64,000 nucleotides of DNA, from contig CAUYUJ010019091.1 in the NCBI GenBank assembly GCA_963575745.1, forward strand, positions 62,001 to 126,000, read 5' to 3'. The DNA comes from Prorocentrum cordatum. Lineage: Eukaryota; Sar; Dinophyceae; Prorocentrales; Prorocentraceae. The position numbers and the translations under genes were made by a program. The notes under the pieces are model-generated. The model did not search any database and was not told where the DNA came from. It saw nothing but the letters and a program-made list of their open reading frames with translations. Positions 32,243 to 60,700 of the stretch are shown piece by piece (within the stretch, counting starts at the first letter, position 1; each line of letters starts with the position of its first letter).

Positions 32243-35200
32243 CTAGTATCCTGCCAAATGCAGGCATTCCTCCACTCCCAAAAGGAGTTGTCGGGCAGAC
32301 TCTAACTCAGCTGCAGTGATAGTGCTCGAGGGGGGAAGGAGGAAAGAGGAAGAGGCCACGTTGGGCTCCCACACGCCACTCGGAAGAGTGACTGGATACT
32401 CAGCAACAGAAGAGGAGCACAAATGAAAATCAATCTGCCAGCCACAGCCTACACCCAGATAGGATCTTCCACCATCGAAGCTTCCCCGAATGGCGTCGAT
32501 CAGAATAGCGTTAGCTTTAACATGGGATAGTAAATCATGCCTAAAACGTGTTCTACAAATGCCCTGCCTAGCTCTGTGTGTTAACTCATCCGCAGCAGTG
32601 TTGTCCTCTCTGTATACCCACTTGAAGATATGTCTCCCAAGACAGGCCGCCTGCACACCACATCTCTTAGCTAGAATGTCTAACTTATTCTGAATGCCGC
32701 CCACAATCTTGTCATAATGCACATTGGCAGTAAAGTACAAGCCTTGGATCCACCGCACAACGCATTGAGAGTCTCCCTTCAGTTCAATGGCAATCCTCCC
32801 CACCTGGAACTCCCACTCCGTGTAATCCTCCAATATCTTAGCATACCGTTTGGACAACACCTCCTCCTTCTTCCTGCTGAGCTCCTCCGAAAGTACCTCC
32901 TCCTCCCTCTCTTCCATAGGCTTCCAAGGAATAGGATCTTTAAGAACCAGGAAATCAGAAACACCAGGAACCTGTAGAAGCGTAAAAACTTCACGAGCAA
33001 ACTTGACCCAGGCCTCCTCGGTCCATTCCAGAACATGGTACCAGTACTTCCCTCCCACGAGCTCAAAAGGTGTTCTCCACGGGCGCATGCCGATAGGAGC
33101 TCCGCCAGTCCTCACACGAGTTCCAGCACGTCCAGCCTGGCTTCCTAAAGATAATATCAGATCATCTCGCCTGGATTCCCACTCCCCTCCTCCGTGCAAC
33201 ATGGACAGTCGTGCCTGCAGGTAGCCGTTGACAGCAGTGCCCGTGTCCACCACCGTGGGCTGATTGTAATAGCGGGTTGGGTCCTCGAACCTGTCTCTGA
33301 GTCTCGCCGTGTTCTGGGAAAGTTGGGTCCTCTGACGTTTGGCCTCATTCATGCACATCGTTTTTCTTTTCCGTCGGTTCGTGGGCTCGGAGGGCGTCGT
33401 ATCATCAACAGGAGCCCCAGGAGCATGCGAGGGAGGCGGCACCAATTGTGAGCCACCCACCACAGAGATCTCACCCACGCCTCCTCCGTCCCTGCCAAAA
33501 CAAGACAATGCAATATCCTTCGCCCATTTCCACTGCCGATATAGGAAGACCTGTGCGAGTGGAGGTCTGCCAGCTTCATAAAAAGCTTGCCTCCCTCTTT
33601 TGTACATGCGCGACATGAATACAGCCCACCCCTCCTCCTCCCTCTTTGCTCTCCACGTCATCCTGCTCAACATCTTCCCCTCCTCCTTGTGTATAAATGC
33701 AATCGTAGAACTGTCAACTGTGGCTCCTTCCAAGCCGAAAAGAAACTTAGATCTCACTCTAGACTCATATCGTGCAAATTTATTCTTCCAAGCAATCCTC
33801 CTGGAGGTGTAAAACGCTCGATCATTCCAGAAAGCACGAATAGCTTTTGCCATACGGTATCGCACATCATCGTGATCCTTGAACTTCCTCGCAATCTTAG
33901 TCCCCAGCACAATAATCTCATCCACCTGCGGAATGGTGATGTTCTCGGGGAGAGACACATTGGGCCCCCTGGACATACCTGGCGGGAACAACGTCACCAT
34001 GAGAGGCTCCGTCACACCGGTGGTAGAGCCCACGTCCATGAACTCAAGACTGCTCTGCTTCCAACGAAAGCCGTGGTCGTGGAGAGCCCACGTCAACTGT
34101 AAGATCATTTTAGCCAGTGTGGGGCGATCAGGAGCTGTGAGAAGCACGTTGTCCGCCCATATGAAGTGACTCACAACAATACCTCCTGCTTCACCCGAGA
34201 GTACAACACCGACAGCATCTCTCGCCCAAGCAGACGTAATGTCACCAAACATGACCAGAGATTGAGCAGTCCACAGATCAGGTCCTTCCTTGGAACCTGT
34301 CTTCACACACGTTGTCCAAGGGAGCGTATCAGCGCAGACACCCTCAAACTGGAAGACCGCCTCATTACCAACAGAGTTCTCAATAAGACCATACCGAAGC
34401 TCCACATCAACACACAAACGCTCAAGTGTAGAAGAAGCAACTTGGACAGTGAGAGAGTCAAATGCAGTGGCAACATCCAGGGAAGCAAAAACAATATTCT
34501 CCTCCTTCCCCCACAGTCTGGCATGTCTGCACATCGCCTTCAATCCCGACGTTACCTCATGTGTCTTACGACCTTGCTGGAAACCATACAAACACAGAGA
34601 CGGAGCACAACAGGAGCAATAGACACCAAATGCGAATTGAGTAGAATACACAAGCAGCCCATGTACCATGTGTTAACGACAGAATTCACAGCAAGAGTAC
34701 GACTGTCATCAAACCTCTTATTCTTGCCGTTCTTCAACATAATGGATGCACGAATGAACTTCCAAGACTCAGGTGCCTCTGCCATTCGCCAGAAGCGGCG
34801 CTGGAAGCAGTCAAGCACCACACGGAGTGCTTCCCAGGACAAAGAACGTAACATGCGTGCACTGATACCGTCAGCGCCTACCGCCTTGCCTTCACGAAGC
34901 CTGGAACGAGCACGACAGAGAACATGCATGGTAATAGGAGAAGAAGTGTGAGTGCTGCGCGCACGTGCCTCATCAGCTTGAACCCGAAGCTGCTCCAGAG
35001 TCGCCAAGTTCATAGCAAGACGTTCCGACTTAGAGTACTTAGCCCTGACCACCCTCGTCATATCCTCCTTCCACTTACTGCGGTCTTCACACCATTCCCC
35101 GTCGATCATCATAGAGTTAGTAACCGTCTTAGTCTTGACCCCATCCCGATAACGATAAAGAAGTAGACGTTTCATGAACTGCCTTCGAACACGATTCCAA

Positions 35201-36479
35201 CGACGACGACTATCCTTGAACGTAGCCTCATCGATCTGACCAGATTTCCAGAGTTTGTGAACTCTGTAGTGGGCCTCTTTCACCTGAGCTTCCTCCTGGG
35301 TCAACTTCGGGACGAGTGAAGCCGATTTAAAGTCATAACAGCGTTTGTCGGCAATAGCCCCCTCCTTCAATCGTGATTCCAGGTCAGCTAGAGAAATGGA
35401 TCTCCACCTAGTATGCCAGATCACCCTTCCCTCAGACTCCTCCGTACAGTACTGATTTTTGCGTTTTTTGTTTTGGCCGCTACCCCCACCAGACTTCCAC
35501 CCAGCAACCTGTGTAACGGCCATATCAAACTCTCTGCACTGTTTCACCTCCTTACCCTCCAGCACAAACCACGAGGCGAACGATCGACTGCCAGTGGCCT
35601 TCGTCCTACCAGAGGACTTCCCCCGCAGCAAACATGGGAGATCAAAACATATCATCTTGTGGTCACTCCATTCGGTGTCCCGAGACCCAGGAGGGTGCGC
35701 ATACATAACGTGCAACTTAGAACACATAACATGAGTCTCCCAGGTCACAGGACACGCAACATAGTCGATGACGTGTTTTGTCCTAGCACCTCCACCACAC
35801 CAGGTAAACTCACGGTCAATGAATGTGTTGATCAGCTTCAGACGTAGCTGGGCCATACAAACACACCAGGCACGCGCACATGCACCCTGCAACACATTCC
35901 TCTGCCTCTCCTCCCTCACAGTACGCTCGTTTACACCACCACCAGAGATACGAAGTCGATCGATCTCAACATGAGGCTGCACTTCAACATTGGCGTCGGC
36001 ACAAACAACAACATCATGAATACTGTACTTTTGACGCAAACGCACACAGCACTCGATAATTCAAGAAGAACGTTCTGGTACAGCTGGAACGTGGCCTGGT
36101 ACCCCTCAGACGTTGTCCCAAAGAATCCTTGCTGAGGAAGATACACGCTAGCATAGATGAATGCGCCCACTTCTGGCCCACGGAAGGCACAGACCGCAAA
36201 TCTTCTACCAGCAGCGTGTCCCAAGAAACAGGAGTTGAGAGTAGACGAGAATAGTACACCTGCTTGGCCCTCAATCGAGCCACTGTCAAGCTTTACTTCA
36301 GCCGAGCTGCGATAGTGAAAACCAGACTCATTCAACGTATCACGTCTGAGAAACTGGCACTCCTGGAGCCCGACAAGTTGCACTCCCAGCTCACGCAGGT
36401 AAGGAAGAGCAGATAGGGAAGTAGCATCACTCATCATTCTGATGTTCCAACAGGCCGCCCTCAACGGGCGGGTACGTCG
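32243..36479 (-). pseudogene. Element A ORF2: APE endonuclease, reverse transcriptase, permuted RNase H (two frameshifts)
   Basis: The frame starts directly after the ORF1 TGA without an ATG and gives CWNIR and LVGLQECQ of the APE endonuclease. It shifts near 36050 into a second frame with VVCADANVEV, IDYVACP and WSDH. It shifts again near 34665 into a third frame with LYGFQQGRKTHEV, ASLDVATAFDSL (RT motif A), SHFIWADN (motif C, 34148-34159) and, at the C-terminus, the RNase H motifs in the order KGDSQCVV (D633), EDNTAADELTH (D694), FDGG (D732), TAAELESA (E788; numbering of the 808-residue third frame). Motif B is degraded (GSKEGPDLWT). Both shifts are one-base-type indels; neither site looks like a programmed signal. 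No longer able to encode a full protein. Confidence 0.85.
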
Positions 36480-37481
36480 TCACACGGAATCTCCATTCAG
36501 CAGCGTCTGCCAGGGCCCAGGGAGGATCTTGTCATCGAACTCAATCACCGATTCAGGCCTCAGAGTCCAACCATGCCTGGGATCCCAGGTTCCCAAACAG
36601 ATCTGCCCACCGGTTTCAGGATAGCCCCAAGCCCAAGACATCACAGGAGACCCATACTGAATTTTGACACGATTGTTTTTCTTCAGCGGGTTCCTCACAC
36701 GAAAGTATGCAGCTGTAAGTTTACTGCCAGCACTCACCTGTCCCTCACGCCAAGGCTCACACTGCACACGAATGCCGATGTACGACTGAGTAGCTGCAAG
36801 AAGAGAATCATCTTTCCAAAGGGGACCCGTGCGCGAAGAGATAACTTTCCAGAACTCCTCCCTGACCTTCCAGACAGTCTCCTTACTCGTGCCATGAACG
36901 AAGAAAATACGCAGCCTAAAGACACCGAACGGCTTGCCCTGGTATTCTCTCTTAATGGCCTCACGATCAAAGATCTTCACATCAACCTCAAACTGCGAGC
37001 CAACTTCATCTAGGAGAATCTGGATAACTCTGGTGGCCCTGGTCTCTGACATGATGTTGCTCGTGCGCGCCTGGACATCACGAGGGTCACCCGAAGTCCA
37101 GCCCGAGAGCGTCAAGTATCCAGGGACAAAGGGGGGTGTGCTCCTGGGTCCTGCATTGCCTCCAAGACTCACCCGAGTAGATACAGAGGCAGCCTCACTG
37201 GCCGCACCATCATTTCCTACCGTCGCTAACTGCTTCTGAAACTGAGCATTCACCGCCTCCTGCTGCTGCTTCTGTTGCTTCACCTCCTCCCTAAGTTGTT
37301 CAAGGTCCGACTTCAAGGGTGCAACCTCCTGCTGGATCTCCTTCCTCACCTCCTCCTTATGTTCCGTCAGAGTACATTTGAGCATATCTGCCAAGTTCTG
37401 AAACTCATTACGCAGTAGACCAATAGTGACAGGTTCTTTGTCATCCGAAGCGCCCCTACCACCTATCCCAGCACGAGCCAT
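36480..37481 (-). CDS. Element A ORF1 (RNA-binding-type protein), 333 residues
   Basis: ATG at 37481-37479, immediately inside the element. A predicted coiled coil spans about residues 25-100 (HKEEVRKEIQQEV.., EQLREEVKQQKQQQ), followed by a globular part with YLTLSGWTS, FGVFRLRIFFVHGTSKETVW and CEPWREGQVSAGSKLTAAYF, which line up with the ELKGW..KVGF and WKRDHVKAV blocks of ORF1 in elements B, C and D. ORF1 proteins of LINEs bind element RNA; that role is inferred. It ends in TGA CGA, with ORF2 in the same frame. The frame is also open upstream through the hairpin flank. Confidence 0.75.
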   Translation of the reverse strand: MARAGIGGRGASDDKEPVTIGLLRNEFQNLADMLKCTLTEHKEEVRKEIQQEVAPLKSDLEQLREEVKQQKQQQEAVNAQFQKQLATVGNDGAASEAASVSTRVSLGGNAGPRSTPPFVPGYLTLSGWTSGDPRDVQARTSNIMSETRATRVIQILLDEVGSQFEVDVKIFDREAIKREYQGKPFGVFRLRIFFVHGTSKETVWKVREEFWKVISSRTGPLWKDDSLLAATQSYIGIRVQCEPWREGQVSAGSKLTAAYFRVRNPLKKNNRVKIQYGSPVMSWAWGYPETGGQICLGTWDPRHGWTLRPESVIEFDDKILPGPWQTLLNGDSV

Positions 37482-37482
37482 C

Positions 37483-37499
37483 TTACCGCCGGGGGACTC
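37483..37499 (+). repeat. Right half of the hairpin occupied by element A
   Basis: TTACCGCCGGGGGACTC, then the usual GTAGAGCTTCCTGAC flank. Confidence 0.8.
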
Positions 37500-38777
37500 G
37501 TAGAGCTTCCTGACAATATTCAATGTCGAAAAAAATTGCAGAGAACGAATAGTTTTTCAGCCCAAGCGATTTCAGATCTCTCGATGCAACAGCCGAACGC
37601 CCCCGATGCTTCTGGATTGCCTTCTGTACGAGCTCAGTAGCTCTCCTACAGCCCGAGTTACGCGCGTAAATCGACAGCATCTCTCAAGATGACTCGAACA
37701 ATACGAGAAGTTGGCAACCTAGCTCGAGTATCAGACCGAGTTCAGACCTCTGAATGCGACAGGCGGACGCGTCTGATGTCTCTGAATCGATTCCTGTGAT
37801 TACCAGCCCTGCAGCCCCCCTGCAGCCCGAGCTAAGTGCAGAAAACCGACAGCACCTCTCAGGATGACTCGAACAATACGAATAGTTTCGCGAACCTAGT
37901 TCGGGCAGCAGACCGAGTTCCGAGCTCTGGACTCGACAGGCGGACGCGCCTGATGTCTCAGAATCGATTCCTGTGACAACCAGCACTGTAGCCCCCCTAC
38001 AGCCCGAGTTAAGTGCAGAAAACCGACAGCACCTCTCAAGATGACTCGAAGAATACAAATAATTCCGCGATTCTAGATCGGGCAGCAGACCGAGTTCAGA
38101 GCTCTGGCTCAACAGACGAACGCGACTGATGATTCTGAATCGGTTTCTGTAATAATCAGCTTTGTAGCTGTTATATAGCTCGAGCTGAGTACAGAAAACC
38201 GAGAGCGCCTGTCAAGATCACTCGAATAATACGAATAGGTTTGCGGACCTAGCTCGGTTAGCAGACCGAGTTCAGACCTCTGGATGCAACAGACGAACGC
38301 GCCTGATTATTCTGAATCGATAAGCTGTGCTTGCCAGCTCTGTAGCTGTCCTGTATCTCGAGTTGAGTCCAATATACCGAGAGCGCGTGTCAAGATGACT
38401 CGAAACGGCCGATCCCGCCAGTGTGCTTTTTGGCAATGAGAGATACCCGATCGAGCTGAGATCAACAAGGCAAGCGGGAATGAGATCGAATATCACGGGA
38501 AAAAATACTAGAGCTCAAACGAATTGAGGAATTTCGAGATACAATTTTCAACCGACCAAAAGTCACCAGAAGGTCCGTCGAGATTTTTCTTGCCAACTAG
38601 CTCTCCAGCGCCCCGGAATTACTCTTAAGCTCAACTTGCTGAGGGAAGCTCTACGAGTTACTAGCTCTACTCTGCGCCAGATTTTCTCTTAGCTCTTTGC
38701 TGAATAGCTCTACGAGGTAAGGTCCGTCGAGATTTTCCTTGCCAACTAGCTCTCCAGCGCCCCGGAATTACTGGGCG
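37500..38777 (+). repeat. 175-bp satellite array with type-1 terminal module
   Basis: Best array for measuring the unit: GATGACTCGAA-type words start at 37689, 37863, 38040, 38216 and 38394, giving spacings of 174, 177, 176 and 178. The end module runs 38405-38665, followed by a repeated CTCTCCAGCGCCCCGGAATT at 38747. Confidence 0.85.
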
Positions 38778-38800
38778 CCGGCGGTAAACCGTCAACCTTC
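38778..38800 (+). repeat. Left half of the hairpin occupied by element B
   Basis: CCGGCGGTAAACC and GTCAACCTTC. Confidence 0.8.
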
Positions 38801-38997: not shown

Positions 38998-41900
38998 TCA
39001 CATCATATCCTGTCCGAAATACGCTTGTACAACCCGCGGCAAGATCATAATCGTATGCTCAACGGCCGAGACCTCGGCATCAGTCACTGTTGAAGTTGGA
39101 TCAATCGAGAGTGCCGCACTCTACACCTCCGTCCAAATGATCTCATGGCTGAGTGGCTGCCTTGAGAGTCTCGATACCCTTCCAACATCTATCCAGCACC
39201 CGACTCCCACGCCGTCGCAAGAGACACCACCATCGAATCCAGCTCTGATGGCACAAACGCGAAACACCTGTTGTAACTGAGGGGCGTGAATCCCTATCCT
39301 ATCTCGAATCACTGGTGGCCCGACGCGGGCCGTATGAGTGAGTACATCTGCACGTGTGTTCCATTCCCTATATGTGTGGTCAATAATTTCCCTCCCGTGA
39401 CAGGCGGGCCTAATTCCATATCTTTGACACATGTTGTCGAGTTGGTTTATCATTCTGTTGATCCTATCTTGATACGTACGATCTATCACCCTCCAGACAC
39501 CCTGCAGCCAAGACACCACCAGAAGACTGTCCCCAGAAATATACACAGGGATCCCAAATGAGTCGAGGTCGTACTCAACCTCCTTCATATTTTGTAACGC
39601 AATACGTTTGGCCAGTTTGTCGTTGAAAGCCGCAGTGCCCTCTTGGGCCCCATAGGTGTGTAGGTCGTTTTGTGTGATGGTAAGTACCTCGTGCAGGGCC
39701 CCACCTGTTGTACCGTACCCTTTTCTTTTCTGAAAATAACTCAGCATCGTCCGTGTACACATGTGTTCGCAGAACTGAACATACGCAGCATCTGTCGGCA
39801 CAAAGGACTCCCACCATTTGAGTCCGTAAAATTCGCAGAAAGAAAATAGCCAGCATCTCTGGCCGACAGCTCGACCTGAACTAACATGTCTCCTTTTTAG
39901 CTGCGAAGCCTCTTGGAAGTGAAACATACCCCGCAAGCACTCAGACGCATCCGTCCTGAGTCTGTCCCACAATGGGCCATACGCAACCGTAGTCATGTGA
40001 TGATCTCTCCACGTACGTTGCGTCGAAGATATATCCTCATGAGAAGCAGCACACATCATAGAAATGAAATCTGCAGCATCCTTCGCGGAGTTCCACACCA
40101 TACGAAGAAATCTCTACACCAAACTCGCAAATCCATAAGATCGGAATTGCTCTCTGGCCTCGTGGTACCGTCGTCGGTTCCAGTCCGCCATAGTCTCCTC
40201 CTCTCTCCTCGGCCGTCGAAACATACGGCACAAACACCATCCCTCGAAGGCATTGAGCATGTGTAGCGAGGAAGCATCCGCAGTACATGTCTCTAGACAA
40301 TACAACGCCATACTCTGCACCTTGTCTTGATAACGGCAAAACTTATCACGAACAGAAACCGCTCTGTTACGAAAGAAATTCGATTGTCCAATGAAACAAA
40401 CTCGAGCCTCCTTGATGCGATATTCAACATCAGGATGAGCAGGCACTAGGTATGTGGAGAAAATCTCATGACCCAATACTTTCATACTGCCAACACGTCG
40501 AAGTCTAAAGCCCTGATATCTCGAGCACGCAGGTATACACAAATCCTCGCTGGTAAGTATATGTCCGTCACCGTCCACTTTAGCATTCTCCCCACATGTC
40601 ATGTACAACAGGCTGCTATCCTTCCATCTCATCCCCCAGTCATGTAGTGGTAGTGTTAGGTCGTGCATCATCTGAGCCAACATAGTTGAGGAGGCAGAGA
40701 CAAGGTAGCAGTTGTCCGCCCACACAAAGTGGTTCACAGTTGTCCGTCGTTCATACTCACCACAGACGCCCTCCAGCACATACCCCACACCTCTACTGTC
40801 CCAATCCCGAAATATAGGTCCCCACATGGCACATATGATAAGATTAAATAGAAGAGGCCCCTCAGGGCCGCCCGTCCGTATGCAGACGTCCCAGTTGATG
40901 TCGTGAATGGCCATACCCTCGACGACTAACGACCCCGTAGTGCAAACCAGCGGTGATAGCAAAGCATACTGGAGATAGGCAGGAATATTGGCATGGCACA
41001 TAGCACGTTTGGCGTTTAGAAGGCTGCAGTGGTCGAACGCTTGTTTGATATCGGCGTTAGCGATATGGACCGTCTGATCTTTTCCCCCGATGTCCCCGTG
41101 TTGAGCCAGAGCCTTGAGGGCCCCCACAATTTCCACCGTCTTACGTCCCTCCTGGAAGCCGTAGATGCCCAGGGGTCCCATGAGGCCAGCCCGAGACACA
41201 AATTGTTCGACCAAGATCACCACGCAAGCAGAGTACCAACGGCTGAGACTGTTTTGCAGACAGAGGTACCGCGCATCTGTCAGCGATGTCAAGCTCGGCA
41301 GCTTGGGCATGAAGGCAATCAAAATCTGCCTCCAATCCTGCGGATACTGCCGTGCCAAGCGAAATATCTCATCAAACATCCGAGCAACGCCACGCAAAGT
41401 CGCCCACGGCAATGCCTTGAGTATTTCACAAGGCAGCCTGTCGGGGCCGGTGGCACGCTTGGACTTGAGACGTGACCGTGCCTGGCATACCACCGCCATT
41501 GTCAGTCCCTCAGTGCAGTACCCGTCACATAGGTTCTGTTGTGCATCCCTCCTCAACTCCTCCAACATCGCCATATCCCGTCCTCTGACCTCCTCCGAAG
41601 TATACTTCTGTCTGGTATGTGCTCTGATCTCCTCCACCCGCTCCTCCCTGTCCTCAGATATCCGTCCCTGCACAATGAGGTGCTTGATACCATGACGCTC
41701 TTTGCGCCTGGAGGCAGGAGAGGTCCACGCGGCCAACGCCGCACGATACTCCCTCCGCAGTCCGTTGGCACGTCTGCGCAAACTGGGCACATCCACTGAC
41801 GCTGGCAGAGGCTTCCGTCGCAAAATCTCCTGGCAGGCCGTGAGTCCTGCAGGCCTAATTGGCGGTAGTCCCCGTCCCGTGGTGGCAGTCGTGAATTTGA

Positions 41901-42969
41901 TATCCTCCTGCTCAGTACAGGCCCGAATAGTGGTCGACACAAGGTCCCCTGGAGAACAAATAGTATTGGCATCTCCCAAGACCCGATCGATTCCCTTTCG
42001 CGCCATATTGAGGCCCCCCCAATTCACCGTCTTATAACCAACCAAACTCTTTTCACGAGCTGCCGTCGGGATACTACGTTTGACCAGCTCAGCGCCTGTG
42101 TCACTAAAAGTCCCCTGAAGCAGGCCATGGTCGCTGAGACGACTACGATTTGTCTTCCCCCCATTACTCATGATCGTTTCAACCTTCATCTCATCGATCA
42201 CCCACGTCCTGGGAACAAAAATGTAATCAAGAACCTTCTTACACGTCCCCCACCGAGATACTCCGTAGCTCTCCCATGTGTGTAGTCGTCGCGGCAAGAA
42301 CGAATTGGCAGCCTTCATCCCCAGGCGCCCTAGAAAGCAAAGAACACGCTCGCGCAACTGTTGTCGTACGTCCCTCCTCACCCGCTGTGCACCTCCCTCC
42401 TCGCAAGTCCTCCTCTCCTCCTTGGTAGCACTTCCCACCGCCTCATAGACAGTCCCAGTGCGTGAGCACTGCAGCTGAGTTGATGGGGATAGCTCGACGT
42501 TGGCATCGAGCAGCACAGAGACAGTCGCCCCCTTCCAGCGGCTGCGCAGAGTGAGAATGACTGACTCGAGCGTGTCCAACACCCCGCACTGCACATCTAC
42601 GGCGTTCTCGACGCCGGGGTCGGGAAGATACGCAGAGGCAACTATCACAGGGGCACTTCCACTACCAAAGACCACCACACAGAACCGTTCATATTGACAT
42701 ATTGATTCACGCACACACGTACTCCACTCTTTGTTAAATAATAACCCACACTTACCGTCACAACTCACACGATATGATAGACCACACCGTCTGATATATG
42801 CATCGAATTTGCCTCCAAAAAGATTCTGGCATTCCTGGACACCCCAGATGCAATCTCGCATTGAAAGGCACCTCAGAATCTCATTCCCCTTGAAATTGGC
42901 CGACCCCGCCCGATTGAGGTTCCAGCTACCCAGCCGGATCCCCTTGAACGGTGTTCGGCGTCGTCGTCG
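38998..42969 (-). pseudogene. Element B ORF2: APE endonuclease, reverse transcriptase, permuted RNase H (two in-frame TAG)
   Basis: The frame opens right after the ORF1 TGA with RRRRRTPFKGIRLGSWNLN; the first ATG (42861) comes only after this endonuclease strand. Endonuclease: WNLN, VQECQ, SAYLPDP, LLDANVEL, LDYIFVP, LSDHGLL. RT: GPDRLPCEILKALPW, NADIKQAFDH, RTGGPEGPLLFN, HFVWADNCYL (WADN at 40711-40722), WGMRWKDSSLLYM. RNase H in permuted order: GDSLLVVSWL, RADVLTH, GFDGG, TDAEVSAVE. In-frame TAGs lie at 40114-40116 (Q in element C) and 39121-39123 (Y in element C), the second just before the last RNase H motif. The true end is the TGA at 38998-39000. Confidence 0.85.
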
Positions 42970-44558: not shown

Positions 44559-44575
44559 GCCGGGGGACTCGTAGG
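44559..44575 (+). repeat. Right half of the hairpin occupied by element B (shortened arm)
   Basis: GCCGGGGGACTCGTAGG; the TTACC of the arm is missing. Confidence 0.7.
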
Positions 44576-45676: not shown

Positions 45677-46742
45677 AGGACTCGTAGAGCTTCCTGACAA
45701 TATATAATGTTTTCACACCTCCGATGCAACAGCCGAACGCCCCCGATGCTTCTGGATTCTCTTCTTTGCGAGCTCTGTAGCTCTCCTACAGCCCGAGTTA
45801 CGTGCGTAAATCGACAGCACCTCTCAAGATGACTCTAACAAAACGAATAGCTTGGCAACCCAGCTCGAGTATCAAACCGAGTTCAGACCTCTGAATGCGA
45901 CAGGCGGACGCGTCTGATGCCAGCGATCGACTCCTGTGATTACCAGCCCTGCAGCCCCCTTACAGCCCGAGTCAAGTGCAGAAAACCGACAGCACCTCTC
46001 AGGATGACTCGAACAATACAATAGTTTCGCGAACCTAGTTCGGGCAGCAGACCGAGTTCCGAGCTCTCCATTCGACGGGCGGACGTGCCTGATGTCTTAA
46101 AATCGATTCCTGTAACCACAGCACTGTAGCCGCCACCCAGCCCGAGTTCAGTGCAGAACACCGAGAGCACTTTAAAGATCACTCGAAAAATACGAATAGT
46201 TTCGCGATTCTAGATCGGGCAGCAGACCGAGTTCGGAGCTCTGCATTCAACAGACAAATGCGACTGATGATTCTGAATCGGTCTCTGTAAGTATCAGCTC
46301 TGTAGCTGTCCTATAGCTCGAGTTAAGTACAGAAAACCGAGGGTGTCTGTCAAGATGGCTCGAATAATACGAATAGGTTTGCAGACCTAGCTCGGCTAGC
46401 ACACTGAGTTCAGACCTCTAGAATCAACAGGCGAACGCGCCTGATCATTCTGAATCGATTAGCTCTGCTTACCAGCTCTGTAGCTGTCCTAAAGCTCGAG
46501 TTATGTTCAGAAAACAATCATCGCGTGTCAAGATGACTCGAAACGGCCGATCCCGCCACAGTGCTTTTCGATAGTAATATTCACCCGATCGAGCTGAGAT
46601 CAAGATGGCGAGCGGGAATAAGATCGAATATCACGAGAAAAAATACTAGAGCTCTAACGAATGTTCAAATTTTGAGAACATAATTTTCAACTGAGCAAAA
46701 GTCATCAAAAGTTCCGTCGAGATTTTTCGAGCCAACTGGGCG
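45677..46742 (+). repeat. 175-bp satellite array with type-1 terminal module
   Basis: Units near 45850, 46025, 46200 and 46375; terminal module 46545-46735. Confidence 0.75.
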
Positions 46743-46766
46743 CCGGCGGTAAACCGTCAACCTTGG
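46743..46766 (+). repeat. Left half of the hairpin occupied by element C, with duplication
   Basis: CCGGCGGTAAACCG then TCAACCTTGG (46757-46766), repeated at 51975-51984. Confidence 0.85.
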
Positions 46767-47025
46767 TTTTTTGCGTCTTTGCTGGGACCATCTTGGCCAC
46801 TAAGGCCAGGTCCAACAAAGTATCAGGCGAAACAGAGCCTCTTATTTATCACGCAAGCAGTCAGCTCTTATACCACACAGCGAAGCTGTTGGAATAAAGA
46901 GAATCACATGCCGCAATGACACAAACAAACACAAAGCACACAAAAGACAAACGAATGAGTCAATGAACAGCGAAGCTGTTGGAATAGACAAGAACACAGA
47001 TAAAGATGAAACAATGTGTGACTTA

Positions 47026-50000
47026 TCACTGCGAATGATCAAAGAAGGTCTGCACAACCTGTGGGAGCACATCGCATATGCGCTCCGCCGCTGATAGTTC
47101 CGTATCTGTAACAGTGGCGCTTGGTGGCAGACACCAAGCCGCAAGATACACATCCTTGAAAATGAAGTCGGTCCGCGAGAATATATATTTGCTTCGCAGA
47201 CCAATCTGTATCCACACACCACAGGCACTTCCGCGGCTACAAACGCCCCCATCAAAGCCGGCTTTGACAAGGCAAGGAATATAACACTGAGATTCAAAAT
47301 CGCTGAGGTAAATGAAATCGGCGTACATGTGGCCCTGACGGGCCTGATGGGTCAGTAAGTCAGCTCTCTGGATCCATTCCCGAAAAGAATGAGAGAAGAA
47401 GTCACGGCCAGCCTCTGGAGGCCTCACCGAGTATGTTTCCTGCATCTCGTCCAACTTATGAATCAGAGTATCCACCCTTGTCTGATATACCTGAGCTAAT
47501 ACTTTCCATTTCCCACAGAGCCAGTTAATCACAAGCAGTGAGTCCCCCTGGATATCCAGTGGTATCCCATCCGTTTCGAGGTCCCACTGTGTGCAACGCA
47601 TGTTATGCAACGCAATATGTTTGCTGAGACGATCCCTATATGCTGGTGTATCCTCCCGATCCTGACCAATATGAACCCCTCCATCCTCATCCAAGTTCAA
47701 GAACACAGGCACCCCTGAGGACGCCAAGCCTTTGCATTTCTTTTGGAAATACTTCAACACAGTACTAGAACAAACATGTGCAGCGAAATCCATGAAATGT
47801 TCAAAACTTCCAGCAAAGAACTCCCACCAGGATAACCCATAAAACGATTCCAATGAATAGTACCACGGACGAAGTCCTACACTCTCCTGTCCCCCCCGAT
47901 GTCGTTTCATTGAGCTGGCCTCCTTCCATTTCCCCCAACATCTGAGAGCCTCGCTTGAATCTGTCCTCATTCTATCCCACAGTCGGCCAAACGCCAGGCA
48001 TGAGAAACGAGAATCTCTCCAAGCTCTTGTCGAGTTTGCCTCCAGCGCCTCCCGATATGTGATCAACCTATGGGCAAAATCATGGATGTCGATTGCCCAC
48101 ATCCAGTGCACTCTGAGAAACTTCTGTACGATCCCCGCATAGTGTGCATCATGAATTTTTTGTCTCGCACGTTCATACCTCCTCGTATTCCATTCCTGAT
48201 TACTTTCCCCTCCCCTCCGTATACAACGAGACATTACAGCCAGGCACTTACCCTCAAAGATATGAAGGGCACTCAATGAACTAGAATCGACCGTACATCC
48301 TTCCGCCGCGTAGAGAACAATACTCTGAACCCTCTGTGCATACCTCTCATACTTATCTTTCAACGGGATGGCCGTGGAGCGGAAGAAGGACGCCTGCCCC
48401 CAGAAAGCCCTGCGAGCAGAGTCAATACTAGCATCCGAATCTGGATGCTCATTCACATGTAGTTCAGAACAAATATGAGCCCCAAGCACCTCCATCTCCG
48501 TCACTCTTCTAAATCGATACACTCCCGAATCCTCCGACCCCATCGAGAGAGAAAGATCAGCAGTACGTAATATTTCCCCTTCCGCATCTCGCGGAGGATC
48601 AACCCCGAACACCATGTACAATAGACTGGACTCTTTCCATTTCATGCCATAGTCGTGTAACTGTCTAGTTAGACCATATAACATGCGCGTGGGTCCCTCC
48701 CGACTCCGAGCCAGAACATAACAGTTGTCCGCCCAAAGGAAGTGATTAATAATCGAAACACAGCTAGTCGAGCCAGTCACAAACTCCATACGATAACCTA
48801 GTCCTAGCACATCCCATTCTCGAACCGTGGAGCTCCACATAGCAGCAACAATAAGGTTGAAAACCAATGGGCCCTCAGGCCCTCCCGTCCGAATACATTT
48901 ATCCCACCTTACCTCCAAAACCTCAATCCCATCATTATAGACAGTGCCTACACAATCACACAAGGGGTTAAGTAGAGCATACTGTAGGTACAGGGGCACG
49001 CTAGCATGATCCATCCCGCGCCTGACATTGGCCACCGTGCAGTGATCGAACGCCTGGAGGACATCAGCGTTCGCCAAGTGCGCCGTTTTCCCTTTTCCCC
49101 ATTGTGCAGCATGTTGACCTATATGTTTGATGCTAGCCGTGATTTCGTGTGTACGACGATGTTCCTGGAAACCATACAACCCAATATGACGGAACCCTCC
49201 GTTTGTTTCAATATGGCCCTCAACCAGGAGAACAATACAAGAACTGAACCATCTCGAAACAGCATTCTGCATACACAGCAAACGACCGTCTTTTAACTTA
49301 GTAATCCCTGGAATTTTGGGCATAAAAGAAACGAGGATCTCACGCCACGACTGAGGATACGGAGTCGTGAGCTTGATGATTTTATCGAACAACTTCTGGA
49401 TCGCTCTGAGAGCACACCACGGCAAGCCCCTAAGAATCTCGCACGGTATCCCATCTGGCCCAGTAGCCCTCTGGGTCTTCAGCCGAGCCCGTGCTCTGAG
49501 AAGCAGCGCCATACTAATTCCCACAACTGATGTGGATCGTACCTCATGCACAGCCCTCATCCTGATCTCCTCCATCATACTGTTGGTGGAATTGCGTACC
49601 TCCTCGGACGACACCTTGAAACGAACGAACTTGTCGAGCTCCTCCTTCCACTCCTCACGGTCCTCCGTCTCCCTCCCATCCACCACTAAACGTTTGATAA
49701 TATATCTGACCTTACGCTTTGTTGGGGGACATCTGCACATAATCATATCACGTCGATAACTTCTGCGTAGACGATTGGCCTCATTCTTTAAACTCCTCAA
49801 CCTCTCCACCTCCTCCTTCGGACACATCTTAAACTCCTCCTCAGCCCTCGTGAGCTGCACCGGCCTGGACGGCTCTCTTGGTCTTCTCGCACCCGTGGTG
49901 GAGTAGTCCACTGTCGGTGACAAGTACGCCGCCAGCATAGTACTCTGCAAACACTGTGGACAGGTCACAGACGGACACCTCGAGAAGGCCGCACCGCCTA

Positions 50001-50977
50001 AATTCAAATCCACATGCTGCCGAGCCTGATGCTCATCAGCCCAAGTCGAACATTTGTATCCGACCAAGGACGGCCTAGACTTCTGACCAGGCTGGGGGTC
50101 AGGGCGACGAACAATCACATTCCCAGGGTCCGTGAAACTCGCCGTGATGATAGCGTGATCGGATAATTTACTGAACTGCTTCTTACCACCCCTCTTGAAA
50201 CACCACTTCACCTCCAGATCCGAGAACTCCCAACGATGAGGGACCAGTAGGTAATCCAGGACCCTCTTCGAAGTCAGAAACTTGTTCTCCCCCCACGACA
50301 CCCAGGTATGCTTCCTAGTATTGAAAGTGTTGGCGGCCTTCAGTCCATGTGATTCCATGAACTCTAAGAGCAGCTCCTTCAGCCCCCTCCTCCGATTCCT
50401 CCTCTCAATCTGCTGTGCACCGTCTCCTCCTCTCTCCCACCTCCTGTCCGTACGAGTACCTTCCTCTCCAGTAGCTCCATACTCCTCCCCATTATACGTA
50501 AACTTGCATCCAGGCGGAATCTCCACATTTGCATCGAGCAGAACACAAAAGCTGGCCTGAGGAAACTTAGTGCGGAGTACATTACGAGCACGACTGATCT
50601 GCTCATAGAGCCGCAGCTATCTCTACACAATCCTCCACATGAGGGTCTGGCAAATACGCTGACACAATAATAAGTGGTGACTTTTCTGACCCAAAGACGC
50701 CGATAACGAACATCGTGAAACACGTAAAGAACATGCGGACGGCAGCCGCCCAAGATCTGTCGAAGATGAGAGCTGCCTTGCTACATGAACTAGTTTTGAT
50801 GCGCCACCCCAAGCGTTCAAATTCACCATGCACAAGGTATTGAGTTTCCTGACATGCAAAGAGCCAACCACATGCCCTCATATGATGGAGAATCTCAGCA
50901 CATTTAAAATGAGCCTCACCTGCTTTGTTCAGGTTCCAGCTCGCCAAACGTATGCCTCGGACGAGGCGCCGCAAACG
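47026..50977 (-). pseudogene. Element C ORF2: APE endonuclease, reverse transcriptase, permuted RNase H (one frameshift)
   Basis: Starts in frame after the ORF1 TGA with RLRRLVRGIRLASWNLN and no ATG before the endonuclease. Endonuclease: WNLN, ACQETQY, SAYLPDP; then a one-base indel near 50600 (EIAAAL / YEQIS), after which the frame is open for 1166 residues (from 50526): LLDANVEI, LDYLLVP, LSDHAII. RT: GPDGIPCEILRGLPW, NADVLQAFDH, RTGGPEGPLVFN, HFLWADNCYV (residues 598-601; 48724-48735), YGMKWKESSLLYM. RNase H in permuted order: GDSLLVINWL (D995), RADLLTH (D1056), GFDGG (D1092), TDTELSAAE (E1143). Terminates at TGA TAA. Repair of a single base would restore it, so the insertion is young or the indel is a sequencing error. 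Confidence 0.88.
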
Positions 50978-51931
50978 TCACTGCCTACGATTTACTTCCT
51001 GAAGTATCTCATTCATGGGGACCGTCAGCGCAGGATAGATACTTACAATACGAGCCCATGCATCAGCATGAAGAACCCAAGCCCCTGTGGGGTTCGTATA
51101 CGTCGCAAAACAGACGGGTCGGAGATTCGGAACAGCTTGAGTCCAAATCTGACTCCTCGGTGGCCCCACCTCCCCACGGATCTCGATTTGAACGTGAGCC
51201 GATGTCATACTTCGCCAAGTCCCACAGAAACGAGCAACCGCTTTCACATGATCACGCTTCCAGGGTGCACACTCCACAAGCGTTCGAATCTTTCTGGGAT
51301 CGATAGGCATGTCCATTTCTTGAATGAGAACATCGGCATTTGGATATGTATAACCTGGAGGCGGAGCAATACGATCGGCTGGTTCCTTACAGACCATATC
51401 CATCCATTTCTTTATTGTCCAATGGGTGTCCCGTGCTGTCCCTTCTTTGAAACCAACCTTCACGCTTCCGTACATATATATTCCTCCGTTTACTCGTTCA
51501 GTTTTATCTTTGTCGTAAGCATTCCTTTCCTCCCCCTGAAGTGTTCCGATCATATTCGATATAAGCTGTGACGCATCCGCCCAGGGTATCATTTGATTTC
51601 CCCGATTAACTTGATTTGACCAATATGTAACCCACCCTTTGAGTTCAAGATAAGTTGGCGTAAACTGGCTCGATCGCCCTTGTTGCACGTGAGGGGCCGA
51701 ACCTACACCTCCACCAGAGGACCCGCCAGGGCCCACACTAGTCGAAACCGATGCCAAAATGTGCTCAACCTGTTTCTCCAGAATATCTGTCCGTGCATCT
51801 GATTTGTCCATGCGCTCCGTATGCAACTTTAGTGTGTCATCAACTCTTTTGATGTCCGTCTTCGTCGATTGAACAACATGGATGAGATCCTCATGTGCAT
51901 CCTCCGTTTTCCAAACATGCTTCATCATCAT
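50978..51931 (-). CDS. Element C ORF1, 317 residues
   Basis: First ATG of three in tandem at 51931 (MMMKHVWKTED). The frame is also open upstream across the junction into the satellite flank, to 52168, but that part is target sequence. A short coiled coil (residues about 15-65) precedes the core FTPTYLELKGWVTYWSN, RVNGGIYMYGSVKVGFKEGT, ECAPWKRDHVKAVARFCGT, GPPRSQIWT. It ends EVNRRQ then TGA CGT, in frame with ORF2. The function is inferred as the RNA-binding ORF1 partner. Confidence 0.78.
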   Translation of the reverse strand: MMMKHVWKTEDAHEDLIHVVQSTKTDIKRVDDTLKLHTERMDKSDARTDILEKQVEHILASVSTSVGPGGSSGGGVGSAPHVQQGRSSQFTPTYLELKGWVTYWSNQVNRGNQMIPWADASQLISNMIGTLQGEERNAYDKDKTERVNGGIYMYGSVKVGFKEGTARDTHWTIKKWMDMVCKEPADRIAPPPGYTYPNADVLIQEMDMPIDPRKIRTLVECAPWKRDHVKAVARFCGTWRSMTSAHVQIEIRGEVGPPRSQIWTQAVPNLRPVCFATYTNPTGAWVLHADAWARIVSIYPALTVPMNEILQEVNRRQ

Positions 51932-51974
51932 CTGTTTGAAAGGATCCTTCTCCTGCGCTAGACTCGTAGAGTCA

Positions 51975-51999
51975 TCAACCTTGGTTACCGCCGGGGGAC
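51975..51999 (+). repeat. Right half of the hairpin occupied by element C
   Basis: TCAACCTTGG duplication then TTACCGCCGGGGGAC. Confidence 0.85.
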
Positions 52000-54718: not shown

Positions 54719-55790
54719 GGGACTCGTAGAGCTTCCTGACAGTAAATAATGTGGAAAAAATTGCAGAGAACGACTAGTTTTTCAGCCCAGGCGATTTCAG
54801 ACCTCTCAAGATGACTCTAACAAAAAAACAAACAGTTTGGGAACCCAGCTCGAGTATGAAGCGAGTTCAGACCTCTCAATGCGACAGGCGACGCGTCTGA
54901 TGTCTCTGAATCGATTCCTGTGGTTACCAGCCCTGCAGCCCCCCTACAGCCCGAGTTAAGTGCAGAAAACCGACAGCAGCTCTGAGGATAACTCGAATAA
55001 TACAATAGTTTTGCGGACCTAGTTCGATCAGCAGACCGAGTCCCGAGCTCTGGGCTCGAAAGAATGACGCGCCTGATGTCTCCAAATGGATGTCTGTGAC
55101 CAGCAGCACTATAGCTCTCCCCGAGCACGAGTTAAGTGCAGAAAACCGAGAGCACTTCTCAAGATGTCGCGAACAACAAATAGTTTCCCGACCCTAGCTC
55201 GGGCAGCAGGCCGAGTTGAGAGCTCTCGATTGAACAGACGAATGCTTCTGATAATTTCCAATCGATTTCTGTGAGTATGAGCTCAATAGCCGCCATACAG
55301 CTCGAGTTAAGTACATAAAACCGAAAGTGTCTGCTACGATGACTCGACTAATACGAATAGATTTGCTAACCTACCTCGGCTAGCAGACCGAGTTCAGACT
55401 TCTCGATTCAAGAGGCGAACGCGCCTAATCATTCTGAATCGATTAGCTGTGCTTACAAGCTCTCTAGCTGTCCTAAAGCTCGAGTTATGTTTAGAAGACA
55501 TCGCGTGTCAAGATGACTCGAAACGGCCGATCCCGCCTGCCTGCCAGTAAAAGGTACCCGATCGAGCTGAGATCAAGATGGCGAGCGGGAATAAGATCGA
55601 ACATCATGGGAAAAAATACTAGAGCTCAAACGAATGTTCAAATTTTGAGAACAAAATTTTCAACCGACCAAAAGTCACCAAAAGGTCCGTCGAGATTTTT
55701 CTTGCCAACTAGCTCTCCAGTGCGCGGAATTACTCAAGCTTTCAGCAACTAGCTAAGGGAAGCTCTATGAGTTACACGCTGCAGAACCCG
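54719..55790 (+). repeat. 175-bp satellite array with type-1 terminal module
   Basis: Units near 54845, 55015, 55190 and 55370; terminal module 55525-55770. Confidence 0.75.
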
Positions 55791-55932
55791 AGAGACCACG
55801 GAAGGGCACGTGGAGCGGTGGGCGGAAGGGTGCGGCGGCGTACGCGCACCCGCCGGCTTCTTCTCTAACAACCCTACGTAGCCCAAGAGGCTATCCGGAA
55901 ATTACTCTTAAGCTTCCAGCAAGAACTGGGAG
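55791..55932. other. Short GC-rich insert related to 53986-54340
   Basis: Begins CAGAACCCGAGAGACCACGG and ends CTCTAACAACCCTACGTAGC..GGCTATCCGG, resembling the two ends of the larger insert; it lies in the same satellite module, upstream of AATTACTCTTAAGC. Candidate miniature mobile element. Confidence 0.45.
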
Positions 55933-55965
55933 CCGGCGGTAAACCGTCAACCAGGTTACCGCCGG
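55933..55965 (+). repeat. Hairpin element, empty copy 15
   Basis: Arms CCGGCGGTAA / TTACCGCCGG, perfect; loop ACCGTCAACCAGG. Confidence 0.85.
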
Positions 55966-56385
55966 GAGCCTCGTAGAGCTCTCCTCTGCACGACGCTGCT
56001 TGGAACACATGGGGGGAGCTATCTTGCGCGTGAGCTGAAAGCTTTGAAAATTACGTGTTCCTCTCAGAGCACTCGTGTAATACGAATAGTTTCGCGGATC
56101 TAGCTGAAGTAGCAGACCGAGTTTAGACCTCTCGATGGAACAGACAGACGCGCCCGATGATTCTGAATCGATGTCTGTAAGTAGCAGCTCTGTACCTTTC
56201 CTAATTCTTGAGAAGTATAGAAAATCGTCAACGCGCGTCGAGATGCTCAAAACGGCCCACGGTTCCCTCAAGTCTTTCGATAGTAATATTGCAGCTACGG
56301 ACCTGAGAATTTTACTGGCAGACGCGGCACAACCCACTAGAGGTGAGAAAAATACCGGTTTCCAAAACGAACTCTAAAACTGGCG
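55966..56385 (+). repeat. Post-hairpin module and one 175-bp satellite unit with type-2 end
   Basis: AGCCTCGTAGAGCTCTC.., unit near 56090, then GACGCGGCACAACCCACTAG at 56325. Confidence 0.65.
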
Positions 56386-56418
56386 CCGGCGGTGAACCGT
56401 CAACCTGATCACCGCCGG
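56386..56418 (+). repeat. Hairpin element, empty copy 16 (compensated TGA/TCA arms)
   Basis: Arms CCGGCGGTGA / TCACCGCCGG: both arms are changed at the paired position. Loop ACCGTCAACCTGA. This is the closest empty relative of the site of element D. Confidence 0.85.
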
Positions 56419-56689
56419 GAACCTCGTAGAGCTCCTAGCACGCGTAAGAGTGCTCAGCATGAAAAGAGAGGGCTTCTAGAAGCATTCTCGAAAAAGAGAA
56501 AACATGATTTTCTTCATGTCGACATAAAGTTGGTTGCGCCAAGTGTTTTGATAGTAAAAGGGCATCTAGAGAGCTGATATTAAGACGCGGAGGCCCTCAT
56601 AGTCGTCTACAGGTGCGAAAAATCTGCTTTCTCAAAATAAATGGTCAAATGTCAACCTTTGTTACCGCCGGGGGACTCGTAGAGCTTCC
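56419..56689 (+). repeat. Flank module shared with the right flank of element D, then a hairpin half-site
   Basis: 56419-56648 matches 63645-63885 over most bases (AGAGAAAACATGATTTT, GTGTTTTGATAGTAAAA, TCTGCTTTCTCAAAATAAAT). At 56650 it switches abruptly to GTCAACCTTTGTTACCGCC, a hairpin lacking its left arm. Confidence 0.65.
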
Positions 56690-57672
56690 TGACAGTATAT
56701 AATGTGGAAAAGAATTCCAGAGAATTTCAGCCCAAGCCAGACCTCTCAAGATGACTTTAGCAAAAAAACGAACAGTTTGGAACCCAGCTCGAGTGTCAAA
56801 CCGAGTTCAGACCTCTGAATGCGACAGGCGGACGCGTCTGATGTCTGTGAATCGACTCCTGTCATTACCAGCCCTGCAGCCGCACTACAGCCCGAGTTAA
56901 GTGCAGAAACCGACAGCCGATCTCAGGATGACTTGAATAATACAACAGTTTTCTGTACTTAACTCGAGCTCTAGGGCAGTTACAGAGCTCAGTTTCACAG
57001 AAATCGATTGTGAATCATCATTCGCGCTCGTCTGTTCAATAGAGAGCTCTGAACTCGGTCTGCTGCCCGAGCTAGGTCCGGGAAACTATTCGTATTGTTC
57101 GAGTGATCTTGAGAAGTGCTCTCGGTTTTCTACACTTAACTCGTGCTGGGGGACGGCTACAGTGCTCTTGGTCACAGAAATCGATTTGAAGACATCAGGC
57201 GCGTCCGTCTGTCGAACCAAGAGCTCGGAACTCGGTCTGCTGCTCGAACTAGCTCCGCGAAACCGAGAGCGTCTGATACGATGACTCGAATAATACGAAT
57301 AGGTTTGCGCACCTAGCTCGGCTAGCAGTCCGAGTTCAGACCTCTGGATTCAACAGACGAACGCGCCTAATCATTCTAGATCGATTAGTTGTGCTAACCA
57401 GCTCTGTAGCTGTCCTGAAGCTCGAGTTATCTTGAGAAAACCGTCACCGCGTAACCGCGCATCAAGATGACTCGAAACGGCCGATCCCGCCGGAGTGCTT
57501 TTTCGAAGTAAAAGGTACCCGATCGAGCTGAGATCGAGATGGCGAGCGGAAATAAGATCGAACATCATGGGAAAAAATAGAGCTCAAACGAATTGTTAAA
57601 TTTTGAGAACAAAATTTTCAACCGACTAAAAGTCAGCAAAAGGTCCGTCGAGATTTTTCTTGCCAACTGGCG
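56690..57672 (+). repeat. 175-bp satellite array containing an inverted block
   Basis: Forward units at 56740-56945. 56948-57262 reads as the inverse complement of the satellite (TACTTAACTCGAGCTC, GAACTCGGTCTGCTGCCCGA, TATTCGTATTGTTCGAGT), then the forward orientation resumes with a type-1 end (57475-57665). Confidence 0.75.
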
Positions 57673-57695
57673 CCGGGGGTGAACCGTCAACCTGG
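57673..57695 (+). repeat. Left half of the hairpin occupied by element D, with duplication
   Basis: CCGGGGGTGAACCG then TCAACCTGG (57687-57695), repeated at 63630-63638. Confidence 0.85.
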
Positions 57696-57729
57696 TTTTT
57701 TGGGTTTTCGGACCGATGCTCCAGCTGGG

Positions 57730-60700
57730 TCAACTGGCGGCCAGAATCTGTTGCGCCAAATGCACAACAGCGCTAGTAAGCGCCTCAGCAGCACTAAGTT
57801 CGGCGTCGGTTATCGTAGCACCCTCCAGGCACCACGCGGCTTCGCACACATCCCTCCAAACGAGAGGCATATTAGAGGACACGGAATAGGGGGAGGAGGA
57901 GGGGAGAGGAGAACACGAGACACACTTATTACAATCATATCTGTGATTGATGAAACCCACTTGAAGCCAAAAGCCGCACCCCGTTCCTTTGCTGCAAACT
58001 CCCCCATCGTATCCACCACGACAGGCGATAGGTTGTAGAAAGTCCTCAAAGCTAAACATGTACTCATATTGGTTGTAGAAGCAGTGGCCCTCGCGGGCCA
58101 AATGTGTAAGTTCATCAGCCCGTGTGTTATCTTCCCTGAATTCATGCCTATATAAGTCTTTCCCCAATCCAGAACTTCGAATGCCCAGATCCCCCGCAGC
58201 TCGATCTAGAACGTTAATACATCGGTCCACCCGTCTCTGGTATTGTTTGTTGTCGCATCGCCATCGTCCCGTCAGCCAGTTATTCACAAGTAAACTATCC
58301 CCTTTGATTTCTACCCCGAATCCTGGACTTACAATGTCCCACACCGTCTGCCTCTCGTAGATGATCGCCAATCTCTTAGCAAGTTTTTGTGTATCTTTCT
58401 CACTCGGTATACGCTCAGTATCCCCCACCATCTCGGGAGGTGTATAGTACGCCGCTGTGCCCTTCCAGTTCTGAACAAAGTACAGGAATACCTTTGGTTT
58501 ATCGTACATACACAAAAGATTCTGCCACATCTCCAGGAAAGAACTATAACTCGTCTCGACACTCGACCACCAGCAACTGCCATATGTAAGAATGTATGGA
58601 TACTGCCAGCTACGCTGGCCCACTCTCTCTGGACCAGCTCTCAACCTCTTGATCGTGGATGCCTGAGTACGGTTCCCGTGTAGACGGCAACATTCTGCCA
58701 TAATGTCCCTGCGCGTTGTCCACTCAACATTGTACATGAGCAATCCCCTTCTGCTGTCCACGAAAGCTCTGTTATCAGGACTGCAGTGATCAATATCATG
58801 ACCTGGCAGGGAGAGTGTGGGCAGTAGAGCCGCCGACCCACTCCCTGAATCAATATTCTCAGAAGCCAAAGAGTCACCGCCAAACCCTTGTCGTAGTCCC
58901 TGCAGTCGTCGTCTTTTCAAGTTCTGCCTGTTGAAGCTGGCGTCCTGGGTCGCAATGTGTCTGGCGAGCTCCTGTGAGACATCCTCCAGCCTATCACTCA
59001 ATGCAATACTCTCAGCAACAACTTGTGAGATGGCTCCCGCGAAAGATTGCGAGGGTGTATCAGCAAAGCGTACTCTCTTCTGGGAAGGCTCAGGATCAGC
59101 ACCAAACGTGGCGACGTGTGCCTGGGGTGTTCCCTCGCATTCGGGGCTTCCCCAGGACTTGCGTCCTGACGCCTCCTGCAAAACTTGGCGACGTTGCCTG
59201 AGGTGTTCCCACGCACTCGGGGCTTCCTCAGGACTTGCGCTCTGACGCCGTTGAACATGTCGACGGTGACAATCTGACAAGATATACTCCTTGATACTTC
59301 TCATCATCGTCCAGCTCTTCCAAGCAATCATCTGTACAGCTGATGGGAAATTGGCCTCAGCGAAATGCTGTCGCACCTTGTGGAGCATCTCAGGGCGCCA
59401 GACACCCCATGTTAGCGAAGACGGCTTGCGGCGGCACCACATACGCAGCAGGCACATGCCCTCAAAAGCATGTATGGTTCGCACCGCCTCAGCATCAAGC
59501 GTGAACATCTCTCCCGCATATAGCAGACGCGATTGGACCTGAGCTTGATAACGGCGATATTTATGTTTCAGCGGTACCGATCTGCACCCAAAATATGATA
59601 TCTGAGCGAAAAAGGATCCCCTGGCGCATTTAAGTCGATGCGCTAGGTCCTCGTGTCCCTCGAGAAAGCTTTTGCAGACAACGCAGCCCAGAATAGAAAG
59701 CGACTCCACCGGCGTGAAGGCAACTCGTTGGTCTCCGACTTGGGCCAGAATCGGCGTAGGGTCCTGGGTCCCGCATACGAGTATCTGCAAGGATGATGAC
59801 TTCCAACTCATTCCCCAGTCTGCTAAAGCAATGGTGAAAACATCAACGATCTTCTGGATTTCCTTAGCATTCCTCCCCACAAGGTACAGGTTATCAGCCC
59901 AAAGCGCATGGTTGTACGTGTGGTAGGTAGCGGGGTTGTGGGGGTCGGGGATCTCGTATCCTATGTTCTGAGCGTCCAGAGAGGCAACTACAGAGGCCCA
60001 CATGGCGATAACCACGATGTTGAAAGCTAGCGGGCTCTCAGTCCCACCCGTCCTCAAGCTCTTATCCCAAGAAACCCCATCCAGTTGGATCCCTTCGAAG
60101 ACGATGGTGCAATTTGTAACAGCGAGCGGCTCAATAAGTGCATATTGTAAGCGTGCTGGGATCTCAAGTTTATCCATTGCGCGTGCAAGCATACTGAGCG
60201 TGACATTGTCGAATGCTCGTGCAATATCTGCCGATGCAATATGTGCGCTCTGATCTTTGCCCCATATAGAAGCGTGCTGTGCAATACCTTTAAGTGCGGC
60301 CGCAATCTCCCATGTGTGCCGTCCCCCTGCGAAGCCGTAGATTCCCAACTTACTTTTCCACAAAGCCAGCCTGTCCTCAATAAGAATAGTGACCGCCGTG
60401 AGGTACCACTTGCCTAGAGTGTTGGAAATTATCAAATTCCTGGTGTCATCCAGGGACTCCATGTTGGACATCTTCGGCATGAGATTCAAATACACGCCAC
60501 ACCATGAGCTGGGAGTGCGCCGACGACCTGAATATATCTCCTGAAACACAGCAATGATCCTGCGCATCGAGCGCCATGGCAGAGCCTTGAGTAACTCAAT
60601 GCTAACACCATCGGGTCCACAAGCTTTGCCGCTACGAAGGCGAGCGCGGGCTCGATATATGACGGAAGGCGTGAGTGTGGGGCCAACTGCTTGGCTGTCA

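Follow-up and report, generated by a model that had tools for sequence, protein, structure and literature searches.

A circularly permuted RNase H signature at the C terminus of ORF2 in four LINE families of the dinoflagellate Prorocentrum cordatum

Introduction

Few enzyme folds that act on nucleic acids have been studied as closely as RNase H, which has a central part in the biology of retroelements. RNase H domains are known in several clades of long interspersed nuclear elements (LINEs), and lie upstream of the reverse transcriptase (RT) in the oomycete Utopia elements (available text of PMC4640811). Here, four LINE copies (A, B, C and D) were analyzed on the minus strand of a 64,000-nucleotide stretch of the Prorocentrum cordatum genome (assembly GCA_963575745.1, contig CAUYUJ010019091.1, positions 62,001 to 126,000; hereafter the window). 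The second open reading frame (ORF2) of these elements ended in an RNase H signature whose two halves appeared in exchanged order.

The closest described enzymes are the archaeal-type RNases HI (3u3g from LC11, 3aly and 2ehg from Sulfolobus tokodaii, 4e19 from Halobacterium; Pfam family RVT_3, PF13456), with which the window domains share the D-E-D-R-D residues and a homologous first half, but in which the halves stand in linear order. Plant Ta11 L1 and oomycete L1 elements are likewise LINEs with an RT and an RNase H having arginine in place of histidine (PMC5348765, PMC4640811); these elements were compared by description only, and the available text of the two papers does not contain the word "permut". 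Oomycete Utopia LINEs are alike in their archaeal-type RNase H and site-specific insertion, but carry the RNase H upstream of the RT and target the U2 snRNA gene (available text of PMC4640811), whereas the window LINEs have theirs C-terminal to the RT and use a repeated inverted-repeat sequence as target.

No description of a permuted RNase H in a LINE clade or in any other retroelement was found in the literature searched, which did not extend to subscription papers and Repbase, in line with a preliminary description of this DNA that knew of no such clade. A similar order may exist in the RT proteins of some dinoflagellates, in which case the family would be wider. The term "permut" was absent from the main text of a review of the RNase H-like superfamily (PMC3985635) and from PMC5603734 and PMC5890265, while the permutation wording in the available parts of PMC5408684 and PMC7824862 concerns a scaffold and methylases.

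Permuted motif order

The C terminus of ORF2 displayed the motifs GDS, AD, DGG and E, in this order, in all four window LINEs (motif string GDS - W - G - Y ... RE ... AD-x-LTH ... DGG-x4-G-x3-G ... T-x-T-x-x-E), that is, the halves of the canonical order (DGG, E, DS, AD) were exchanged, as the preliminary description had stated. In all 80 canonical prokaryotic RNase H genes fetched using a piece of 3u3g, DG[GASR] occurred no later than residue 40 of the excised stretch. Because the canonical order is absent, the domain was not classed as a canonical RNase H. The last 180-200 residues of ORF2 are instead read as a permuted RNase H signature, predicted to form a single archaeal-type domain that likely degrades template RNA after target-primed reverse transcription, a reading to which a probability of roughly 0.85 was assigned.

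The domain of copy D (ORF2 residues 1238-1436, 57733..58329, minus strand as for all four copies) held its acids at D1248 (58297-58299), D1309 (58114-58116), D1345 (58006-58008) and E1414 (57799-57801), and that of copy C (residues 985-1166, 47029..47574) at D995 (47542-47544), D1056 (47359-47361), D1092 (47251-47253) and E1143 (47098-47100); the residue numbers first given for these two copies were correct on recheck. Copy A (residues 623-808, 32246..32803) showed the same order, with D633 (32771-32773), D694 (32588-32590), D732 (32474-32476) and E788 (32306-32308). Copy B (39001..39561) followed it too (D at 39529-39531, 39346-39348 and 39232-39234, E at 39073-39075), so that all four carboxylates were located in each copy, as previously claimed, but the claim for B needs a qualification: its GDS, AD and DGG blocks lie inside the ORF at 39121-40101, while the AEV block with the glutamate lies beyond the second of two in-frame TAG codons.

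Pairwise residue identity among the four copies ranged from 30 to 51% in the RT and from 31 to 44% in the C-terminal domain, and by this divergence they are four different families. The motif order is not attributed to chance, because these four ORF2s and 11 of the 12 relatives from the databases share it. The proportions of nonsynonymous (pN) and synonymous (pS) differences between window copies were 0.41-0.52 and 0.76-0.88 (near saturation) for the RNase H domain, and 0.34-0.53 and 0.71-0.85 for the RT; the amino-acid constraint on the RNase H domain is much like that on the RT.

Relatives and conservation of the active site

A profile search with the four-domain alignment, a check that the preliminary description had proposed, recovered 12 relatives (E 9e-75 to 1.4e-27), ten from sources coded ena, lgn or jgi and two from EukProt under the label Pyramimonas sp. 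AAC.1. The next-ranked proteins were eight with RVT_3 annotation (E 0.3 to 9.8). AD preceded DGG in the 11 permuted relatives, and the whole series was present in seven of the 12. The others were fragments: P0014 carried GDS, AD and DGG, P0016-P0018 carried AD, DGG and E, and P0019, 95% identical to A over 97 residues, carried DGG and E only. The Pyramimonas-labelled P0014 and P0017 were 81% identical to A over 158 residues and 83% identical to C over 134 residues, respectively. Taken by itself, this label would tentatively point to a prasinophyte or a near relative as host; a piece of the dinoflagellate spliced leader matched once, with 3 mismatches. A search with D residues 1100-1436 gave no match at E 10 among 1985 scored candidates; this null likely reflects limits of word sampling and candidate length, since the domain-length alignment later found the 12 relatives. 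The four-row ORF2 alignment (7994 candidates scored) retrieved one LINE, P0007 (EukProt, E 9e-7), in which no RNase H was seen, and two scans of viral contigs yielded no relative.

When the four window domains and the 12 relatives were aligned (16 rows), the equivalent of D10 was present in 16 of 16 rows, E48 in all 15 with a letter there, the arginine in 15 of 15, D134 in 14 of 15 and D70 in 12 of 13. The D70 exception was P0019, aligned there through its N-terminus unlike the other rows. The aspartate and glutamate of the second half were both kept in 15 of 15 rows reaching the end. Among the 11 complete domains (four window copies and seven relatives; fragments P0014 and P0016-P0019 were omitted from the 11-row alignments), the order DS, AD, DG, E was invariant, as were D70, D10, E48 and the archaeal-type arginine, whereas D134 was found in 10. 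In the exception, P0010, AN replaced AD (fourth acid asparagine) and the remaining acids were kept. The GDS-to-AD (D70-D134) spacing was 61 in 11 of 11, against a median of 50 in canonical enzymes (78 of 86 genes). Arginine in the fifth active-site position is the criterion for the archaeal type (available text of PMC4640811 and PMC5348765), and by this residue the domain is assigned to that type.

Since the acids and the arginine would be needless in a structural tether, their retention in nearly all rows despite great divergence makes it unlikely that the RNase H fold is kept in a non-catalytic role like that of the degenerate RNase H found in retroviruses and in certain Ty3/Gypsy elements, an explanation favored by the missing fourth acid of P0010 and by the loss of catalytic residues from the original RNase H domains of such elements (available text of PMC5348765).

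Identity of the two halves

The first half of the domain is, on profile comparison, clearly homologous to RNase HI. The GDS-AD block matched a set of 86 canonical RNases H (the 80 fetched genes and six database proteins, with a consensus carrying the arginine-type PREKN motif) at an hhalign E of 7.8e-13, and scored 15.7-24.9 bits against the canonical profile in each of ten domains (P0013 was left out of these single-sequence tests). The native four-row profile searched against PDB, up to E 10, matched the RNases HI 3u3g, 3aly, 2ehg, 4h8k and 4e19, and also haemagglutinin chains (E 0.7-1.2).

The second half is identified as the putative first half of an RNase H from its motifs and conservation, from the AlphaFold2 model described below and from PDB scores obtained with the order restored. 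DGG and two glycines were invariant in the 16 rows, with a Cys and the Glu at 90% or above, a pattern consistent with the signature expected of an RNase H first half. Restoring the canonical order raised the score of the four-row profile against 3u3g from 18.8 to 25.6 bits, compared with 19.7 in the one control with a shuffled second half, and that of the 11-row profile from 22.2 to 25.8 bits.

Several results weigh against this identification. The second half alone had no significant sequence match (hhalign E 0.11), and the joined profiles aligned the 18-19-column DGG segment as expected only in a weak secondary match. Single-sequence scores gained little, with more than half of the shuffles reaching the score in five of ten domains; the first half alone scored higher in nine of ten; and the alignment set helix aA three residues away from the motif reading. 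When cut points were scanned in the ten domains against the canonical profile, the best one lay 20-30 residues ahead of DGG in every domain, but this does not decide the matter because the gain over the native order was small (0.2 to 2.6 bits) and 128-165 cuts lay within 3 bits. The Pfam RVT_3 gathering score of 21.6 was not reached by the window domains, of which the best scored 17.1 in native order and 19.4 with order restored. If true, the permuted reading would account for the failure of profile scans to find the domain, as with the Pfam cut-off reached by none of the four window domains.

Predicted structure

AlphaFold2, run without templates from four sequences, predicted that the 207 residues 960-1166 of copy C form one domain, with a predicted local distance difference test score (pLDDT) of 83.4 and a predicted template modelling score (pTM) of 0.81. 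The elements, named by the analyst, followed the order N-terminal helix, b4, aB, aD, b5, aE, b1, b2, b3, aA, with D36 after b4, D97 in aE, D133 in b1 and E184 near the start of aA; aE ended at 104 and b1 started at 123, leaving 18 residues between. Copy D gave the same order with lower confidence (mean pLDDT 60.9; most 10-residue blocks of the domain 61-93, stretch 277-301 below 50). In the two models the acids were placed inside or beside the elements where they were expected. Structure prediction, a check proposed in the preliminary description, gave a permuted element order for both copies, and the DGG/AEL segment of C fell within the single confident domain. The predicted order fits a permuted RNase H fold opened at the aA/b4 loop, in which strands b1-b2-b3 and helix aA would come after aE. 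The tail from the glutamate to the protein end, 20-26 residues in nine of the 11 complete copies (19 in P0009, 39 in P0015), is in line with such an opening, as the canonical E48-D70 gap has a median of 24 residues.

The BFVD structure library gave no whole-domain match among the 50 matches listed. Sequential structure searches returned, among the matches listed, a half-domain match to RNase HI and no whole-length RNase H. The outcome of the sequential searches, together with the lack of a significant sequence match for the second half, is what would be expected if the GDS/AD half were a C-terminal RNase H fragment followed by an unrelated or separately folding DGG/E half, the pair being no RNase H. 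The modelling of the 207 residues as one unit, the near-invariant columns that fit an RNase H first half and the joint retention of D and E make this very unlikely. Complementation of the halves between chains in a domain-swapped dimer is the least likely arrangement, given the confident monomer model of C and the 18 residues between aE and b1, which should suffice for closure.

Reverse transcriptase and upstream region

ORF2 encodes an RT of the LINE type, as judged from profile matches. RVT_1 was detected in D above the cut-off (E 2.1e-9, residues 568-753) and in A, B and C below it (E 9.5e-6 to 1.5e-4), and the best solved match to the ORF2 profile was LINE-1 ORF2p, on the RT side (8sxt, E 1.6e-10). 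RT motif B read TG[GS]xE[SG]P, and motif C was WADN in all four window copies (from residue 714 in D, 598 in C, 750 in B and 171 in A), the second aspartate being replaced by asparagine in each of the four divergent families; LINE P0007 has YADD. F/YxDD is usual at motif C of RTs and is not treated as defining for LINEs. LINE-1 ORF2p has FADD at this motif and is not known to have an RNase H, in contrast to the WADN and permuted RNase H of the window LINEs. Their WADN RTs notwithstanding, both C and D lie between target-site duplications.

The RT-side stretch that D shares with A ends at residue 916 of D, about 330 residues before GDS. Between RT and GDS, searches detected neither half of an RNase H (hhalign E 0.38; no hmmsearch score above zero in six upstream rows) nor a second complete canonical domain, and Pfam at E 1 on the whole D ORF2 returned RVT_1 only. 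This agrees with the preliminary description, which saw no DG-type strand or AEL helix before the GDS block. Residues ~1091-1237 of D form a conserved region between RT and RNase H, with VGxRxW ... YGxxWW in most copies, which matched no Pfam family at E 1 and was modelled at pLDDT mostly below 50.

Proposed function and origin

In the permuted domain, the four acids would meet and bind two metal ions, and the enzyme would clear the template RNA paired with the first cDNA strand, allowing the second to be synthesized. The permutation may have arisen when an RNase H was duplicated in tandem, after which the first copy lost its first half and the second copy its second half. A putative relic of aA from this duplication is the helix that precedes b4 (model residues 2-17, block pLDDT 57-67), in which the four window rows share invariant L, K and A but no invariant acid. 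The broader proposal, that a site-specific algal LINE clade uses a permuted, catalytic archaeal-type RNase H, the first in any retroelement, together with an RT in which the near-universal YxDD became WADN, is regarded as probable, with less assurance than the domain assignment. If true, a natural permutant maintained over deep divergence would imply that the catalytic centre can accommodate chain termini at a new place, next to the active-site helix, and the domain would be a marker for a little-known LINE lineage.

Element layout and target sites

LINE D lies between the halves of a target repeat at 57693..63638 (ends approximate), with the duplication ACCAGGTTGA straddling each end. Its ORF2 is uninterrupted (1436 residues, 57730..62040), and QEC and SDH motifs of an apurinic/apyrimidinic (AP)-type endonuclease were read by eye, with no Pfam match at E 1. 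The D ORF1 (465 residues, 62068..63465) matched no Pfam family at E 1, and stretches similar to it precede ORF2 in B and C. LINE C occupies 46763..51984 (approximate) between target halves, with duplication AACCAAGGTTGA, and its ORF2 (1166 residues, 47026..50526) has its N-terminus in another frame after a frameshift near 50616. The ORF2 frame of LINE B (39001..42969) is interrupted by TAG at 40114-40116 and 39121-39123. LINE A lies between target halves at 32172..37482 (approximate), with an unclear duplication; its ORF2 is frame-shifted upstream (frames 34552-36060 and 32243-34672), the 3' part encoding 808 residues (32243..34669) and the 5' part lying in 34552-36060. A-rich 3' ends were present in all four copies.

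A, C, D and a further element, E, shared one insertion point in a repeated inverted repeat (CCGGCGGTAA ... TTTACCGCCGG), a hairpin-like target site, which looks like site-specific insertion. Occupied sites were found at 32148-32171 (A), 46739-46762 (C), 57669-57692 (D) and 23630-23653 (E), and empty ones at 27570-27621, 20797-20848 and 30866-30918; target-site duplications of 10-12 bp were present in C, D and E. LINE B had an identical 3' junction at 38774-38797, while the left half of its target repeat was not found. Element E (1,970 bp, 23654-25623) has the target and the 3' end CGCAAAAAACC in common with the LINEs. Its minus-strand ORF of 352 residues (24238-25296) was matched by no LINE ORF1 or ORF2 query, and the element may be non-autonomous.

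Elsewhere in the window, arrays of 175-177-bp tandem repeats recurred between the LINEs (21100-57400), and a 90-bp tandem repeat in nine copies carried long ORFs on both strands (18484-19294). Long CAGCCT arrays alternated with 73-bp tandem repeats at 2546-17533, and the CpG ratio was 0.43 in 1-20000 compared with 0.89-1.06 in the rest of the window.

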